From Anaerosolibacter sp. (GTDB taxonomy: Bacteria; Bacillota; Clostridia; Peptostreptococcales; Thermotaleaceae): 64,000 nucleotides of DNA. Position 1 is the stretch's first letter. Each line of letters begins with the position of its first letter. The stretch covers positions 248,001 through 312,000 of the forward strand of contig NZ_JARBTM010000005.1 of the NCBI RefSeq assembly GCF_029240175.1, written 5' to 3'. Shown here piece by piece: positions 3,904-39,909 of this stretch. The notes beneath the pieces are model-generated. The model ran no database searches. It worked only from the letters and a program-made list of their open reading frames with translations, and was not told where the DNA came from. The translations under genes were made by a program, and so were the position numbers.

Positions 3904-4053
3904 CGATTTGGAGGACCAGATGGGGAACTGTCTGCAGCTTTAAGATATCTTCATCAAAGGTATAGCATGCCTACTGGTGAGGCAAAAGCATTGTTAACAG
4001 ATATCGGAACAGAGGAGCTTGCTCACTGGGAAATGATGGGTGCCATGTATCCT
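3904..4053 (+). pseudogene. cotJC: internal fragment of a CotJC-type spore coat protein (manganese catalase family)
   Basis: The frame reads RFGGPDGELSAALRYLHQRY and, further on, TDIGTEELAHWEMMGAMY. This is the four-helix-bundle core of the CotJC/manganese catalase family, with the metal-ligand stretch EELAHWEM. There is no start codon or ribosome site. Upstream, the frame dissolves into AT-rich sequence, and after residue 50 it runs into a repeat at 4049-4099 and stops at 4075-4077. Only about a quarter of a normal 190-residue CotJC remains, so it is a truncated relic. cotJA and cotJB are not seen. Confidence 0.75.
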
Positions 4054-4099
4054 GGATTTTTTACCTATTTTGAATGAGTCATTTGATTTTGTCCATAAA
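4049..4099. repeat. dispersed repeat, copy A (other copy 10453-10501)
   Basis: The core CTATTTTGAAT.AGTCATTT followed by GATTTT and ATAAA is shared with 10468-10501, with only a few mismatches, and similarity begins at the ATCCTGG of a hairpin arm. In the other copy this sequence lies between the stop codon and the terminator of the carbonic anhydrase gene. Copy A has only one arm of that hairpin, joined directly to the CotJC fragment, so it marks a rearrangement junction. Confidence 0.55.
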
Positions 4100-4308
4100 A
4101 CTGGTATTCATCCCCTTCCTTCATAGAGTTGTCTTAAATGGCCATGATACAAATGTATCTGTGAGCGCTCTAAGAGGGGGCACAAAGTTAGAGAACTGAA
4201 TGTAAAAAACTATATATAAGACTTTTGGCTTATTTATACTTTGTTTAAAAGGAAAAGGCTGAAAAAGGTAGAATAATATCGAAATGACATAAAGTAGATA
4301 TATGATTG

Positions 4309-4390
4309 ATAAAGGCAAACTTATCGAAAGGTAAGGACGCAAAACCATGGATCTAAGGAATGTTTCATTCTATGATTGACAGGTTGCCAA
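4309..4390 (+). promoter_or_regulatory. class I cyclic-di-GMP riboswitch (GEMM-I)
   Basis: The element matches the GEMM-I aptamer point by point. It opens with AAAGGCAAAC. A hairpin follows, CTTATC/GGTAAG, capped by a GAAA tetraloop. Next comes the invariant GGACGCAAA. A second hairpin (GAATG/CATTC) is flanked by TCTAAGG and TATGA, which form the receptor for the tetraloop. It closes with AGGTTGCC, pairing back to GGCAAAC. A terminator follows at 4416-4439 and then the gene at 4464, so cyclic-di-GMP probably controls read-through. Whether the ligand turns expression on or off cannot be decided by eye. Confidence 0.92.
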
Positions 4391-4415
4391 AGACGTTATG
4401 ACACATAATAATGCT

Positions 4416-4441
4416 GGCAGCTTTTTGAGCTGCTATTTTTA
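4416..4441 (+). terminator. intrinsic terminator of the riboswitch expression platform
   Basis: Stem GCAGCT (4417-4422) with AGCTGC (4428-4433), extendable by two pairs, loop TTTTG, followed by TATTTTTATT. It lies 26 bases after the aptamer and just upstream of the ribosome site GAAAGGATAAG of the 4464 gene. Confidence 0.8.
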
Positions 4442-4463
4442 TTGTGTGTGAAAGGATAAGATA

Positions 4464-6005
4464 ATGGATCAGACATACATTGATCGTTTTAATATTGATA
4501 ACATTCTTTTAAGAAGTATTAAACAAGATATTTTTGTTGGCACATCCAAAGCAGATTTAAATGATACAGCAGTCATTAATATTATTAAAGACAAAAGTAT
4601 TATATCATCAAAGGATTTAAAGAAGATTAAAAATTCATTGCATAATGTATTGTACCAAGAAAAGATTGATAATGGTGTAGTGTTGGTCACAAAATTTCTT
4701 GCTGGTACTCCTTTGTTAGAGCATTTAAACCAAAATAATTTGAATAAGAAAGATAGGGAACATATACTTTATGAATTTATCAAAGGAATATCTAAATATT
4801 CGAAGTTGGATAAGCCACTAATTAATGTTTTGATTGACGAGACACAAATATTTGTACGAAATGGCATACTTCAGTTTGCAGAACTGATTAAGTGTGATAA
4901 TTTGCTTCAGTCTCCTCAGGAGTTCAAGGCGATAGTAGGAAAAATAGGTGCTGTTTCAAGGAGAATATATACCTATGGATTACCAGAACAACACCAAGAA
5001 AATCTTGTATCTGATAAAATCTTAAAATTCATAGACGATTTAGAAAATGATAAACTGACTGTTAATAATATTGGTGAGATTTTAGATTACTATAAGAGTT
5101 TATATTTCTATAGTACATCATCAAGAACAAAAATTGATCAGGCCTATGGAACTACAAGAAATAAAAGAAGAACATTGAGGAAGCAGGTTAAGAGCCCGAT
5201 TACGAAAATTGCAACAGGACTTTCTATTGTAGTATTGATGACTTGTGCATCCACTATTTTCCAATTACCATATATGCTTCAAGGATTTGTTGTCCAACCA
5301 CCTACTGCATCTTTTGATAAAATTAACATTGCTGATGGATGGAAGTTTATAAACAAGAGTACTGCTGATGGAAGTAACAATATCATTAAAGGATCAGTGT
5401 GGCAAGTTTATAAAAACGATCAAATTATTGATGAGAAAATATCGAAAGATCTTGATATGGACTTTGTAGATCAAGGCACATACAAAGTAATTCTAAAGGT
5501 TCAAGATCAGTATGAAAAATGGAGTGTTCCCTACGAAAAAGAATTTCATATGTTAAAAAATGAGAGACCAGGACCACCACAAGAGACAGCTGGATTTGAA
5601 ACTGAAATCCTCGATAATTATGAGATTATTTATGATAACCCTAGTGATACATTTATAGATAATTCCATATTTAAAAAAGGCAACTGCTCCATCCGATTTG
5701 ATAAAAGTGAAAATGGAAACAACAAGTCTATTGCGATGAAAGATCTAGAACCTAGTAATTACTCTGCTTTTTCAATGTGGGTAATGTCTAATTCTATACA
5801 AACGATTGATTTCGAGATTGAAGGTTATAAAAATGAAAAACTTAACTATCGAAATAGAGTTTCTTTTAAGTTAGTTTCAAGTAATTCTTGGGAAATGCTT
5901 AATATAAATGGAGATATCAGCAATATAGATGAATTGAAAATATCCGTTTTAGACCATGACTCAGCTTTTTGGATTGATGACTTAACATTAGATTTATACA
6001 AATAA
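4464..6005 (+). CDS. riboswitch-controlled membrane protein: degenerate kinase-like domain, one TM helix, PKD-like and beta-sandwich-like extracellular part
   Basis: 513 residues. Residues 1-215 look like a worn protein-kinase fold: a beta-rich start, a hinge-like VTKFLAGTPLLEHL at about 75-88 and a stretch INVLIDETQIFVRNGILQFA at about 121-140 where a catalytic loop would be, but no HRD or DFG is present. A basic region (about 225-245) leads into one membrane helix (248-270). Outside, residues 290-362 resemble a PKD domain, with WKFINKST and GTYKVILKVQDQYEKWS. Residues 375-513 form a beta-rich domain reminiscent of carbohydrate-binding sandwiches. The upstream cyclic-di-GMP riboswitch suggests a surface role in attachment or motility change. 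The domain calls are inference. Confidence 0.75.
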   Translation: MDQTYIDRFNIDNILLRSIKQDIFVGTSKADLNDTAVINIIKDKSIISSKDLKKIKNSLHNVLYQEKIDNGVVLVTKFLAGTPLLEHLNQNNLNKKDREHILYEFIKGISKYSKLDKPLINVLIDETQIFVRNGILQFAELIKCDNLLQSPQEFKAIVGKIGAVSRRIYTYGLPEQHQENLVSDKILKFIDDLENDKLTVNNIGEILDYYKSLYFYSTSSRTKIDQAYGTTRNKRRTLRKQVKSPITKIATGLSIVVLMTCASTIFQLPYMLQGFVVQPPTASFDKINIADGWKFINKSTADGSNNIIKGSVWQVYKNDQIIDEKISKDLDMDFVDQGTYKVILKVQDQYEKWSVPYEKEFHMLKNERPGPPQETAGFETEILDNYEIIYDNPSDTFIDNSIFKKGNCSIRFDKSENGNNKSIAMKDLEPSNYSAFSMWVMSNSIQTIDFEIEGYKNEKLNYRNRVSFKLVSSNSWEMLNINGDISNIDELKISVLDHDSAFWIDDLTLDLYK

Positions 6006-6137
6006 ATACTTAGCATGAGGGCAATACTCTCCACCGTAATCTCCTTTATCGAGGCACAAAAAATATACTTATGAGAGTTATTATCAAAAAAGAAAGGGTA
6101 TTAATAACATAAATAATTAATCTGAGGAGGAAAATTT

Positions 6138-6749
6138 ATGAAAATATTAGTCCTTTTCTATTCAACCTATGGACATATTAAACTAATGGCTGAAGCTGTA
6201 GTTGAAGGTGCAAAACAAGTAGAAGGTGCGGAAGTAATACTTAGAAGAGTGCCCGAAACATTGCCGGATGCTGTTTTAGAGAAGATGGGTGCTTTTGAGA
6301 TTCAAAAATCATTTGCAAATATACCAGTAGTAGAACATAGCGATCTTGTAAATGCAGATGCTATCATTTTTGGAACTCCTACAAGGTTTGGTAATATGAC
6401 CGGTCAAATGAAACAATTTTTAGATTCTACAGGTGGTTTATGGGCACAGGGTTCTTTAATTGGAAAAGTTGCTAGTGTATTTACTAGTTCAGCTACACAG
6501 CATGGAGGACAAGAATCAACAATATTGAGTACACATATTCCACTTTTACATCATGGAATGATTATAGTAGGCCTACCTTATAGTTTCCAAGGACAGACAA
6601 GAATAGACGAAATAACGGGTTGTTCTCCATATGGAGCTTCTACTATAGCTGGAGCCCAAGGAGAAAGATTACCTAGTTTAAATGAGTTAGAGGGAGCAAG
6701 ATTCTTAGGAAAACATGTAGCAACTATTACGGCTAAATTAACAAGGTGA
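6138..6749 (+). CDS. wrbA: WrbA-type NAD(P)H:quinone oxidoreductase (flavodoxin-like)
   Basis: 203 residues, the usual WrbA length. The FMN phosphate-binding loop is at the N-terminus ([14 protein letters not shown]). The flavin-contact motifs [18 protein letters not shown] (about 76-93) and the C-terminal [12 protein letters not shown] are typical of WrbA. The enzyme passes two electrons from NAD(P)H to quinones, protecting against redox cycling. The start has a clear GAGGAGG site. It is a single gene with its own terminator at 6780-6805. Confidence 0.92.
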
Positions 6750-15140: not shown

Positions 15141-15178
15141 ATTTAATAGGAAAGTTCTCCTTTCCTATTAAATAAAAG
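15136..15178. repeat. 19-bp perfect hairpin
   Basis: Arms 15136-15154 and 15160-15178 are perfectly complementary around TTCTC. The hairpin begins at the end of the thioesterase terminator and is followed directly by the GC-rich block at 15182. It is AT-rich, so it could be a second terminator or the border of an inserted element. Confidence 0.7.
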
Positions 15179-15181
15179 ATT

Positions 15182-15290
15182 AGGGGTGCAGGGGAAGTAT
15201 TCCCATGCCGTAGTCAGAGGGGTGCTCAGGCTGCCTAGCAGCCGTCGAAGGGGAACTAGGTTCCCCTAGCGAAGGCATCGAATATGGGTT
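15182..15290 (+). ncRNA. GC-rich structured leader or element upstream of the diguanylate cyclase
   Basis: About 110 bases of markedly higher GC than the neighbourhood with nested palindromes: GGGAA/TTCCC near 15195, GGCTGC/GCAGCC with CTA loop at about 15231-15245, GGGGAAC/GTTCCCC with TAG loop at about 15255-15271, and an outer ATGCC/GGCAT pairing near 15206 and 15280. It does not match the cyclic-di-GMP aptamers I know. It may be an unknown cis-acting RNA of the gene at 15330, or the end of a lost IS200/IS605-type element whose RNA is structured in this way. Confidence 0.4.
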
Positions 15291-15329
15291 AAGGACATAT
15301 GATGAAGAAAAATGAGGGAGGGTATACCC

Positions 15330-16883
15330 ATGAAGATAGGAATTAGAATGAAAATGAGCCTCACGATGCTAATATTAATCAGTATTCCTATCTATGTGCT
15401 GGGGGCCTCATCCTATGGAAAAGCAAAAGAGATATTGATCCAAGAGTTAAATGAGGTGAATCTTAGAACCATAGAACATATGAATGATTTTTTTATCCAT
15501 CACTACATGGAAGAAATAGAATCTACTGTAGATATTTTTTCAAGTGATCCAGCGCTGGTTGAATCACTAACTGCTGAATCAAATAGCTTAAATGTGACAG
15601 CGGATTGGGAGATCATTCGAAAACTTAATTCAGACCTTTGGCATGTTGTGGTTGGGACAAGCAAGGGCGAAATTTATGTCGTTCCAGATTGGCTGCCGCC
15701 CAATGGGTACAATCCCATCATTCGGCCTTGGTATGCAGCTGCCATGAAGGAAAAGGGGAAAATCGCTTGGAGCGAACCCTATGAAGAATTGGTTACTCAC
15801 GAGACGGTAATCAGTGCCTCAAAGACCATAGAAAATCAACAGGGTGAAGTTGTAGGGGTGTTTGCGATCAATACCTCCCTCCAAAAACTTTCAATGGCAG
15901 TAGAAGGGACGAATCTGGGAGATGGTGGATATATGATGATTTTAGATCAAAATGGACAGATTATCGCCCATCCCGATGAAAATGCCTTAGGAAATACAGT
16001 GATTCAGCAGGGGTGGTATTCCTCCTTAACGAAAGGGAAAGATGCATTTTATGCAACCGTAGGCGGCAAGGGTGTATTTATAAGTTATATGACGATTCCA
16101 AAAACTGGATGGAAGATCGTCGCATTGATGCCGAAGGAAACTTTGGAAAGGGAGGTTGAACCAATACGACAGCGGACAATCTCCATCGCTCTGATTAGTG
16201 GACTTTCTGCTGTGTTGGTAGGCATATTTTTCTCCCATACATTGGTGGGAAGAATCAAAAAAATTATGGAATATATGGGACAGGTTGAAAGCGGCAATAT
16301 GAAAGATCACTATCATTGCCGGGGAAATGATGAGATTTCTGAGCTGAATAGGAAGTTTAACCAAATGGTTGATACGCTGAATCATACAATGACAGAAATG
16401 GAGAAAATGGTTATGCTGGATGGATTGACAAAGATATACAATCATAAGTATATGTATGAACGTCTTGACCAAGAAATACAAGAAGCTAAGCGATATGGGA
16501 AACATTTGACCGTAATCATGGTGGATATAGATCATTTTAAGAAAGTAAACGATGTGTATGGCCATCAGGTTGGTGACCATGTGTTGTCTAAACTGGCGAT
16601 GTTCATAAAGGATAATCTAAGGAGTATGGATATTGTGGGCAGGTATGGAGGCGAAGAATTCATGATCATTTTACCAGAGACAGCATTAGCACAAGGTTAT
16701 ATGGTGGCGGATAAGATACGGCAGTTGGTTGAATCCATGGAATGGGAGGAAAAAAATCTGAAAATCACCATAAGTGGCGGCGTTACAGCGTGGATGGATG
16801 AGGGTGCATTGAAAATGGTAAAAAAGGCGGATGATCTACTATATCAGGCAAAAAAGAACGGAAGAAATAGAATAGAGCAATGA
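15330..16883 (+). CDS. diguanylate cyclase with Cache sensor and HAMP domain
   Basis: 517 residues. A membrane helix at about 8-30, an extracellular dCache-type sensor at 35-280 (with IRPWYAAAMKEKGKIAWSEPY, typical for it), a second helix at 282-305, HAMP at about 305-355, then GGDEF at about 360-517. The catalytic motif GGEEF is intact and an inhibitory site RSMD lies five residues before it, so an active, feedback-controlled cyclase is expected. It turns two GTP into cyclic-di-GMP in response to an external ligand. ATG chosen after GGGAGGG. The product is the ligand of the riboswitch at 4309. Confidence 0.93.
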   Translation: MKIGIRMKMSLTMLILISIPIYVLGASSYGKAKEILIQELNEVNLRTIEHMNDFFIHHYMEEIESTVDIFSSDPALVESLTAESNSLNVTADWEIIRKLNSDLWHVVVGTSKGEIYVVPDWLPPNGYNPIIRPWYAAAMKEKGKIAWSEPYEELVTHETVISASKTIENQQGEVVGVFAINTSLQKLSMAVEGTNLGDGGYMMILDQNGQIIAHPDENALGNTVIQQGWYSSLTKGKDAFYATVGGKGVFISYMTIPKTGWKIVALMPKETLEREVEPIRQRTISIALISGLSAVLVGIFFSHTLVGRIKKIMEYMGQVESGNMKDHYHCRGNDEISELNRKFNQMVDTLNHTMTEMEKMVMLDGLTKIYNHKYMYERLDQEIQEAKRYGKHLTVIMVDIDHFKKVNDVYGHQVGDHVLSKLAMFIKDNLRSMDIVGRYGGEEFMIILPETALAQGYMVADKIRQLVESMEWEEKNLKITISGGVTAWMDEGALKMVKKADDLLYQAKKNGRNRIEQ

Positions 16884-17733: not shown

Positions 17734-19104
17734 ATGAATTTGCCAAAGGATTTTTTAGAGAAAATGCGGTTTCTGTTAAAAGATGAATATGAGGGTTTTA
17801 TAGCCAGCTATAGGGAGAACAAATTGCAAGGACTACGTGTTAATACACTAAAGATATCGGTAAAAGACTTTTTAAAACAGAATGTATTTCAATTAGAGCC
17901 TATTCCTTGGGTAGGGGAAGGGTTTTATTATCCTGTTGAGGAGAGGCCAGGTAAACATCCATTTCATGAGGCCGGATTATATTATATTCAGGAGCCCAGT
18001 GCTATGGCAGTAGGAGCTGCCCTTGATCCTCAGCCAGGGGAACGTGTGTTAGACCTTTGTGGAGCACCCGGAGGGAAATCCACCCATATTGCAGCTAGGC
18101 TTAATAATGAAGGATTTTTGCTCGCCAATGAAATCCATCCTGCCAGGGCGAAAATTCTAGCCCAGAATGTGGAACGGATGGGTATCAAAAACTGCGTAGT
18201 AACCAATGAAACCCCTGAAAAGTTAGCCCACCGATTTCCAAGATATTTTCACAGGATTCTAGTAGATGCTCCATGCTCTGGAGAAGGAATGTTTCGAAAG
18301 GACCCAGATGCTTGTGAAGAGTGGAGTTTAGAGAATGTAGCCTTGTGTGCGAATCGGCAGCTTCAAATATTGGAGGAAGCAGGAAAGATGCTGATGCCTG
18401 GGGGGCGATTGGTATACTCTACGTGTACATTTTCACCAGAGGAGAATGAAGGGGTTATTGACCAATTTCTAAAGAAGCATCCTGAATATTCTGTAGAGGC
18501 TGTAGTATCACATGAAGGCTTCAAACCCGGAAGAAAAGAGTGGATACAAACAGATAATACGTCCATTGAAAAGACAATACGGTTATGGCCCCATCACCTA
18601 AAAGGAGAAGGGCACTATGTGGCAGTACTAACCAAAAATGATGGTGAGGGCCCAGAAAAAATAAAGACTATAGAAAAGTCAGTAGATCGTAAGCTGTTGA
18701 AGGATTATTTTGATTTTGGGGAAGCATATTTAAATGAAACACCAGAAGGTGAATACATATTATTTGGGGAGCAATTATATATTATACCTAAGGAGATGGT
18801 ACGCCTAGAGAAGTTAAAAGTACTTCGCCCTGGATGGCATTTAGGAGCCATCAAGAAAAATCGATTTGAGCCATCCCATGCCTTGGCACTATCTTTGAAA
18901 GAAGAGGATTGTAAGTTCAATATCAGCTTCGAGATAGGCGACGATCTACTACTTGCCTATCTAAAGGGTGAGTCGTTAAATGTAGAAGGACACAAGGGTT
19001 GGAATCTTGTTCATGTAGAAGGCTATTCATTGGGTTGGGGCAAACTGGCAGATCAGGTGTTAAAAAATCATTATCCCAAAGGCTTAAGGTGGTCAGGGAT
19101 GTAA
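17734..19104 (+). CDS. RsmF-type RNA (cytosine-5) methyltransferase
   Basis: 456 residues. The N-terminal part holds the GLRVNTLK and YYIQEPSAMAVGA segments of the NOL1/NOP2/Sun family. The AdoMet loop is LDLCGAPGGKSTHIA. The two catalytic cysteines are in DAPCSGEGMFRKD (motif IV) and YSTCTFSPEENEG (motif VI). The C-terminal 150 residues match the RsmF extension with a PUA-like end. It makes m5C in rRNA or tRNA. First gene of an RNA-modification cluster (gaps of 25 and 35 bases). A paralogue lies at 38551. Confidence 0.92.
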   Translation: MNLPKDFLEKMRFLLKDEYEGFIASYRENKLQGLRVNTLKISVKDFLKQNVFQLEPIPWVGEGFYYPVEERPGKHPFHEAGLYYIQEPSAMAVGAALDPQPGERVLDLCGAPGGKSTHIAARLNNEGFLLANEIHPARAKILAQNVERMGIKNCVVTNETPEKLAHRFPRYFHRILVDAPCSGEGMFRKDPDACEEWSLENVALCANRQLQILEEAGKMLMPGGRLVYSTCTFSPEENEGVIDQFLKKHPEYSVEAVVSHEGFKPGRKEWIQTDNTSIEKTIRLWPHHLKGEGHYVAVLTKNDGEGPEKIKTIEKSVDRKLLKDYFDFGEAYLNETPEGEYILFGEQLYIIPKEMVRLEKLKVLRPGWHLGAIKKNRFEPSHALALSLKEEDCKFNISFEIGDDLLLAYLKGESLNVEGHKGWNLVHVEGYSLGWGKLADQVLKNHYPKGLRWSGM

Positions 19105-38550: not shown

Positions 38551-39909
38551 ATGCAGCTGCCAATAGATTTTTTAAAGAGAATGAAGTCTTTGCTAGGGGA
38601 TGAGTATGAAGATTTTATTCGATCCTATGATGGATCAAAGTATCAAGGCTTAAGGATCAATACATTGAAAATATCTGTGGATGAATTTCAGAAAAGATCT
38701 CCATTTTCCTTAAAACCCATTCCTTGGACAAAGGATGGTTTTTATTATGAAGAAGGAGAGCGGCCTGCAAAACACCCATACTATCATGCTGGATTATATT
38801 ATATACAAGAACCCAGTGCCATGGCGCCGGCATCTGTGTTAGATGTTGTGCCAGGGGATAAGGTGTTGGACCTTTGTGCAGCACCTGGAGGGAAAACAGT
38901 ACAGCTTGCAGCAAAGCTCAAAGATAAGGGGATTCTTGTTACGAATGATATCAATTTACAGAGGGTTAAGGCCTTGATTAAAAATGTTGAGTTGTTTGGG
39001 ATTAAAAATGCTATCGTCACCAATGAAAGTCCTGAGAAGTTAACAAGATATTTCTCAAGATATTTTGATAAAATTCTAGTCGATGCCCCGTGTTCTGGAG
39101 AAGGAATGTTTCGCAAGGATGAAAAAATGGTGAAAAGCTGGGAACGACAAGGCGTTGAGCCCTATGTGGCCATGCAGCGCAGTATCATGGACTGTGTGGA
39201 TGGGATGCTGGACGCTGACGGAGAATTATTGTATTCTACGTGTACTTTTTCTCCTGAAGAAAATGAAGGAATTATCGAGGAGTTTATATCAAACCACGAA
39301 AATTATATGATTCGTCCTATATCTAAGGCTTTGGGTTTTGATGAAGGGAGACCTCAATGGGTTTCAGGCAGAGAAACCTTAAGGGGGAGTGCGCGGCTGT
39401 GGCCCCACAGGCTAGAAGGAGAAGGACATTTTTTAGCCTGGTTAAAAAAAGGACATGATTTGTTAAGAGAGATAAATGCCAAGGGAACAGATGCAATAAA
39501 GGCACCTAAATTATTTGCTGCTTTTGTGGAAGAAAACTTGAATGTTCAGCTGGAAGGCTGTTTTGAGATACATAATGATCAATTATATTTATTGCCCGAT
39601 GGATTACCACCTTTAAAAGGTTTGAAAATTTTAAGATCGGGATGGTTGCTCGGAAGCTTAAAAAAAGATAGATTTGAGCCAAGCCAGGCCATGGCCATGG
39701 CATTATCTCGTACGGATGCCACGAGAACAGTAAATTTCAAAGTCAGCGATCCAATGATTGTCAAATATCTAAAAGGAGAGACATTGGATATCGAAGGGGA
39801 GAAGGGCTGGACCTTGGTATGTGTAGATGACTTTCCAGTGGGATGGGCGAAGCAGACGGGTACCATGTTAAAAAACTATTATCCACCTGCTTGGAGATGG
39901 ATAGATTAG
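38551..39909 (+). CDS. RsmF-type RNA (cytosine-5) methyltransferase, second copy
   Basis: 452 residues, collinear along its whole length with the protein at 17734. It has the same motifs: GLRINTLKIS, YYIQEPSAMAPAS, LDLCAAPGGKTVQLA, both catalytic cysteines in DAPCSGEGMFRKD and YSTCTFSPEENEG, and the RsmF-type C-terminus with GWLLGSLKKDRFEPS. So it should also make m5C, perhaps at a different RNA site. AGGGGAGAT site. The rsuA-like gene begins nine bases after it, so the two form an operon. Confidence 0.92.
   Translation: MQLPIDFLKRMKSLLGDEYEDFIRSYDGSKYQGLRINTLKISVDEFQKRSPFSLKPIPWTKDGFYYEEGERPAKHPYYHAGLYYIQEPSAMAPASVLDVVPGDKVLDLCAAPGGKTVQLAAKLKDKGILVTNDINLQRVKALIKNVELFGIKNAIVTNESPEKLTRYFSRYFDKILVDAPCSGEGMFRKDEKMVKSWERQGVEPYVAMQRSIMDCVDGMLDADGELLYSTCTFSPEENEGIIEEFISNHENYMIRPISKALGFDEGRPQWVSGRETLRGSARLWPHRLEGEGHFLAWLKKGHDLLREINAKGTDAIKAPKLFAAFVEENLNVQLEGCFEIHNDQLYLLPDGLPPLKGLKILRSGWLLGSLKKDRFEPSQAMAMALSRTDATRTVNFKVSDPMIVKYLKGETLDIEGEKGWTLVCVDDFPVGWAKQTGTMLKNYYPPAWRWID

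Follow-up and report, generated by a model that had tools for sequence, protein, structure and literature searches.

A predicted transmembrane pseudokinase family with exchangeable outer modules and, in some lineages, a c-di-GMP-I riboswitch

We found that a full c-di-GMP-I (GEMM-I) riboswitch precedes a gene for a membrane protein that combines a kinase-fold domain on its predicted cytoplasmic side with a PKD and jelly-roll module on the outside, and that this protein belongs to a real, apparently undescribed family whose anatomy is well supported. The gene lies in the 64,000-nucleotide stretch of DNA that was analysed (the window), and the coordinates of its features are collected in Table 1. 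Taken singly, the riboswitch and the domains belong to known kinds; their combination is new, as is the family. We read the locus as encoding a single-pass transmembrane pseudokinase receptor whose transcription would be shut off by c-di-GMP, so that a protein with a ligand outside and a docking function inside would be made when c-di-GMP is low. This whole reading is reasoned from the features described below, and is put forward tentatively as a real possibility. Bacterial pseudokinases are mostly uncharacterised, with seven families named in the accessible part of a review (PMC12599244). A family that is common in its order, with a receptor-like build, swapped outer domains and c-di-GMP wiring in some lineages, would let the use of a pseudokinase as a bacterial surface receptor be put to the test, and may add a new output to the switch between motile and sessile life in Clostridia.

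Table 1. Features of the riboswitch and pseudokinase locus in the window.
Feature	Position	Strand	Detail	Basis
c-di-GMP-I (GEMM-I) riboswitch aptamer	4304..4391	+		Rfam RF01051 match
P1 3' strand of aptamer, predicted antiterminator	4381..4389	+	pairs with 4415-4423	pairing energy
Intrinsic terminator	hairpin 4415-4435; T tract 4436-4443	+	TGGCAGC..GCTGCTA	terminator scan
Ribosome binding site	4450..4455	+	GAAAGG	sequence
Gene, membrane protein	4464..6005	+	513 aa, ATG start	ORF call, homologues, AlphaFold model
Cytoplasmic pseudokinase domain	4464..5117	+	residues 1-218	AlphaFold model, fold matches
Single transmembrane helix	5202..5279	+	residues 247-272	helix in model
PKD domain (outside)	5313..5552	+	residues 284-363	profile, fold
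Jelly-roll (CBM-like) domain	5607..6002	+	residues 382-513	Foldseek

The leader and the direction of the switch

The aptamer matched RF01051 over the full length of the model (1-87) with a score of 83.3 bits (E 6.5e-15), well above the Rfam gathering score of 35 bits, and the GAAA tetraloop and GGACGCAAA both fell inside the match. The earlier note had read from the letters a full GEMM-I aptamer, then a terminator and a 513-residue gene; the covariance search bore out the aptamer, the limits given at that time (4309-4390) being a few bases short, and the terminator with its T tract and the gene were both recovered downstream. This was the only c-di-GMP aptamer that Rfam placed in the window, and one of 11 GEMM-I aptamers genome-wide. 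The terminator hairpin (-11.1 kcal/mol) was the sole terminator-like site that the scan gave in 4050-6140.

Over the whole window leader, no stretch paired better with the P1 3' strand than the terminator 5' arm, the two forming 9 bp at -13.0 kcal/mol. The terminator 5' arm was likewise the best partner in L002, L016, and L077, and the pairing was thus kept in four of the five riboswitch-bearing leaders although their sequences differ. When each leader was compared with shuffled arms, the pairing was strong in the window (equalled in 0.2% of shuffled arms) and L016 (1%), modest to weak in L002 (5%), and weak in L077 (16%). No clear antiterminator was found in the fifth leader, L026. From this architecture of the sequence we infer that the pseudokinase gene is under a predicted c-di-GMP OFF switch. 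At high c-di-GMP, the aptamer would close P1, the terminator 5' arm would be free, and transcription would stop before the gene. At low c-di-GMP, as in motile cells, the P1 3' strand would hold the terminator arm and the protein would be made. With an OFF switch, the protein would be one of the low-c-di-GMP (motile) state.

Class-I c-di-GMP riboswitches of C. difficile are transcriptional OFF switches (PMC11477304). With c-di-GMP-I riboswitches the window locus shares the full aptamer, in which no differences were seen, the terminator platform, and a regulon of surface and motility type, and its leader shows the exclusion between P1 and terminator that is expected of an OFF switch. The type of gene controlled, a transmembrane pseudokinase, was not found in the literature searched, and a literature search gave no paper combining GEMM, riboswitch and PKD. 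The other genes downstream of GEMM-I in this genome, as judged from translations read by eye, encode transglutaminase-like secreted proteins, a sortase beside a wall-protein-like gene, a Flp pilin/prepilin peptidase operon, a chemotaxis receptor (MCP), an HD-GYP protein, a PAS protein, and a large surface-type protein. The pseudokinase gene fits well into such a regulon of surface and motility genes. The pilin and wall-protein-like genes among those co-regulated would also suit an ON switch, with sessile cells making the protein under an adhesion programme driven by c-di-GMP. However, the P1 3' strand and the terminator 5' arm are mutually exclusive partners in four leaders, and the C. difficile riboswitches of this class work in the OFF direction, leaving an ON switch improbable. 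The structure and the c-di-GMP-I control proposed earlier were retained. Membership in an adhesion programme switched on by c-di-GMP is not what the leader predicts.

A second RNA element was seen elsewhere in the window. A Clostridiales-2 RNA (RF02937, 79.6 bits) at 15174-15255 is followed closely, in the same orientation, by a gene (15312-16883) whose membrane-protein product combines a sensor-like region with a C-terminal domain of GGDEF type (GGEEF) and is likely a c-di-GMP maker. The RNA may serve as the leader of this gene.

The cytoplasmic pseudokinase and its outer modules

No family was named for the window protein by searches of Pfam and NCBIfam. The gene is not a chance ORF, because full-length homologues of about 30% identity were present in many genomes. 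The AlphaFold model of the whole protein, for which the input was a 31-sequence alignment, had a mean pLDDT of 83.7 and placed the jelly roll at residues 382-511, and residues 1-218 modelled alone gave a pTM of 0.88 and a pLDDT of 90.7. VIA-align placed this N-terminal domain on NEK7 (Z 15.7, 203 of 218 residues aligned), S. aureus PknB (Z 14.3), and the plant pseudokinase DRIK1 (Z 14.2). Foldseek against the PDB returned kinases throughout among the matches listed, with E values down to 7e-8, and these included the intracellular pseudokinase domain of Mycobacterium MviN (3otv); EssB was absent among the 50 fold-search matches listed, an absence that carries no weight. By hhalign, the domain matched PrkC with a probability of 25%, with beta4-beta5-hinge-alphaD in the right register. 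The assignment of the modelled domain to the kinase fold is firm, and the fold search agreed with the kinase-like fold that the earlier note had suggested for residues 1-215.

The catalytic positions were mapped from secondary structure and motif remnants rather than from coordinates, and with a possible error of one residue at the DFG position, the family alignment placed N39 at the VAIK Lys (Asn in 28 of 30), L123 at the HRD Asp (Leu in 26 of 30, hydrophobic in all aligned members), Q128 at the catalytic-loop Asn (Gln in 30 of 30), and E140 at the DFG Asp (Glu in 28 of 30, Asp in 2 of 30). In support of the register, distant homologues show remnants such as NPDNI and NPSNI at the place of the kinase KPxNI. 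The domain has no glycine-rich loop, and its activation segment spans only about a dozen residues. G26, Q128, and L193 are invariant in the family alignment, with N39 and E140 near-invariant. Judged by sequence, the domain is a pseudokinase whose substitutes are unusual but strongly conserved, and L123 and E140 accord with the absence of HRD and DFG reported before.

The conserved polar substitutes at N39, Q128, and E140 converge in the kinase pocket, and pseudokinases with new chemistry do exist, according to the accessible part of the review (PMC12599244). A remodelled enzyme could thus be envisaged, in which this pocket would bind a nucleotide and catalyse a different transfer, like SelO and SidJ. 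Against such an enzyme stand the hydrophobic residue at the HRD Asp position in every aligned member, the missing glycine-rich loop, and the very short activation segment, and we regard it as very unlikely. There is also a slim chance that the family forms a separate, undescribed class of receptor pseudokinase, in which one conserved dead-kinase signalling unit is linked by the transmembrane helix to interchangeable outer modules, and whose Asn/Gln/Glu pocket, in place of Lys/Asn/Asp, would take a small ligand that is not ATP-Mg but perhaps a nucleotide second messenger. If this were true, a surface receptor controlled by c-di-GMP would also read a cytoplasmic signal.

A disordered basic linker with 9 K/R and 1 D/E in 28 residues precedes the transmembrane helix, and this basic stretch predicts that the kinase part lies inside the cell. 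On the other side of the helix, a profile search of the PDB matched the PKD domain to 2c26 and to the PKD of ColH, and Foldseek matched the jelly roll to CBM44 (2c26), CBM61, and CBM22. The PKD-like plus beta-sandwich ectodomain of the earlier note was thus recovered by both profile and fold. Among the 31 members, PKD_4 was present in 11 and CBM_4_9 in one. Sugar binding by the jelly roll is suggested by the modelled fold, and its conserved tryptophans may be structural. The window protein ends in W-x-D-D-x...Y-K-stop. As a separate observation, the final Lys (6000-6002) closes 28 of the 31 aligned sequences and every one of the 15 further jelly-roll members listed, for the most part as Y/F-K-stop.

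The outer part varied among homologues, with the pseudokinase and the transmembrane helix kept. It consisted of PKD plus jelly roll, of a jelly roll only (such as L045 and L055), of PKD only (L098, E 9e-8), or, in the distant homologues L107, L108, L109, and L116, of a C-terminal LysM domain (E 6e-7 to 2e-14) set behind a long disordered linker, and was missing from L096 and L110, which have the transmembrane helix without an outer module. A constant unit of pseudokinase and helix with exchanged modules of wall or sugar type is expected of a receptor or of a wall-anchored hub. Since many surface proteins carry PKD and jelly-roll domains and the kinase motifs are lost, the protein might instead be a surface anchor or adhesin, with the inner kinase fold a functionless, vestigial plug on the membrane side. 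However, a vestige predicts the reverse of what was found, in that loss or exchange of the outer part leaves the inner domain conserved, and this inner domain holds the invariant and near-invariant residues given above. We consider a mere anchor or adhesin to be quite improbable.

Distribution of the family and recurrence of the riboswitch

Homologues were present in 36 of 98 related genomes. Wider sampling gave them in 78 of 297 genomes for the order and 30 of 391 for the class, some of these order- and class-level matches covering the PKD part only. A pattern scan for named relatives gave only Anaerovirgula multivorans and one MAG, and one named family member belongs to Peptostreptococcales. 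No homologue was found in the plasmid and phage collections searched. Around the family loci, the search showed neither a partner nor a neighbouring gene that is conserved, and the neighbours changed from clade to clade (SbcCD-like, M20 peptidase, ABC transporter, and housekeeping genes). Two further observations concern gene copies. A second, short paralogue in G014 and G015 (L096 1980-2885, L110 1974-2807) consists of the pseudokinase and the transmembrane helix with almost no outer part, and the window holds two similar RNA-methyltransferase-like genes of about 455 aa each, at 17734-19104 and 38551-39909.

The search for orthologues with the same riboswitch, proposed earlier, gave four genomes besides that of the window with GEMM-I directly upstream of the family gene: G001, which is of the same genus as the window and whose family protein is only about 31% identical, G077 (Anaerovirgula multivorans), G064, and G481. 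The search turned up no second GEMM-I in G064. Its single aptamer (L026 1259-1347) is weak at 49 bits, has GGATACAAAG in place of GGACGCAAAG and an unclear terminator, and is perhaps decaying. On the tree of the N-terminal domain, the riboswitch label needs four changes and falls in two separated, distant clades. The 36 family-bearing genomes contain 180 GEMM-I, and 4 adjacencies to the family gene were seen versus about 0.1 expected by chance (P ~3e-6, or ~0.004 if counted as two events), an estimate for which the number of transcription units per genome was assumed. The riboswitch was present at 5 of about 70 loci scanned, with the remaining 65 or so lacking it, and no sub-threshold riboswitch was found at 14 other member loci. 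Because most members lack the riboswitch, control by c-di-GMP is recurrent in the family, not general to it. The pairing of riboswitch and pseudokinase noted before is thus present, but the family is wider than that arrangement, as the outer domain can be exchanged and most homologues do without the riboswitch. A further GEMM-I, in genome G493 (L081 1643-1728), lies beyond the family gene, at a distance of about 270 bases and in the same orientation, before the next gene.

GEMM-I occurred in 33 of 36 genomes with the family versus 38 of 62 others, and flagellin in 31 of 36 versus 33 of 62 (p ~0.001, by a statistic that ignores shared ancestry). The co-occurrence is suggestive, and was not taken as proof because shared ancestry is ignored in the statistic. 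Spo0A showed no clear pattern of co-occurrence with the family.

Comparison with known systems and the proposed mechanism

In the receptor reading that we favour, the kinase-fold domain would lie in the cytoplasm, with the PKD and jelly-roll module in the wall or outside, where it would bind a cell-surface or environmental polysaccharide. This binding would be relayed across the membrane to the pseudokinase, which would need no phosphotransfer and would instead dock or release a partner in the cytoplasm. We infer both that the ligand is a polysaccharide and that the protein signals instead of serving as a static anchor. The suggestion in the earlier note, that the protein may relay surface adhesion state to the cytoplasm or act as a scaffold, is likewise a candidate function.

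The layout also resembles that of EssB/YukC of T7SSb and TraF of the pIP501 T4SS, which share with the window family an N-terminal cytoplasmic pseudokinase of about 210 residues, a single transmembrane helix, an outer C-terminal domain, and degraded catalytic motifs and activation loop. The outer domain of EssB/YukC and TraF is helical, whereas that of the window family is beta-rich (PKD, jelly roll, or LysM), and the window family lacks a secretion operon and is sometimes under a c-di-GMP riboswitch. Orthology to EssB/YukC was rejected, as the YukC profile (PF10140) was unmatched in 31 of 31 members at E 0.01. Since EssB/YukC (type VII) and TraF (type IV secretion) are non-catalytic hubs of the same layout, according to the accessible parts of the sources (PMC12599244, PMC13037476), the window protein could be an assembly hub instead of a sensor, its pseudokinase nucleating a membrane complex and its outer module only fixing that complex to the wall. 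Outer modules of wall- or sugar-binding types, LysM included, and homologues reduced to pseudokinase and helix would agree with a hub. However, no secretion or pilus genes are conserved beside the gene, and a search of all 98 related genomes with the YukC profile gave 0 matches. A hub is on balance somewhat unlikely.

PASTA-type PrkC/PknB kinases share with the window family the kinase fold inside, the single transmembrane helix, and outer wall-binding modules, whereas the window family lacks catalytic motifs and PASTA (a PASTA profile search of the 31 members gave no match), and the sequence similarity is faint. PrkC-like kinases occur in the same genomes as the family. The RsgI anti-sigma factors of C. 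thermocellum follow the same receptor logic, with exchangeable carbohydrate sensors (PMC12203970) of CBM, PA14, or GH type outside, a transmembrane helix, and a short cytoplasmic regulatory domain; their cytoplasmic domain binds sigma, whereas that of the window protein has a kinase fold. Identity with RsgI was ruled out by the kinase fold of residues 1-218 and the lack of a match to any anti-sigma family, and no sigma-factor gene was seen beside the window gene.

MviN (Rv3910), of the ActPs3 family, is likewise a bacterial membrane protein with a kinase-dead domain as docking site and an outer domain of carbohydrate-binding type. It carries a flippase and an actinobacterial pseudokinase, and differs from the window family in domain order and lineage. 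The accessible part of the pseudokinase review (PMC12599244) names ActPs1-3, GLW, CP1, DYD, and DLHK and leaves EssB, SidJ, and SelO unclassified; the window architecture was not found among the families in that part, which makes no mention of PKD, the comparison being with the published descriptions there. The ectodomain is most closely paralleled by the PKD-CBM44 tandem of C. thermocellum Cel44A (2c26), which was the first Foldseek match of the model (E 1e-9) and a profile match at E 5e-7. The PKD and jelly-roll tandem is the same in both; in Cel44A it is a module of a secreted endoglucanase, whereas in the window protein it forms the ectodomain of a membrane protein, with sugar binding putative.
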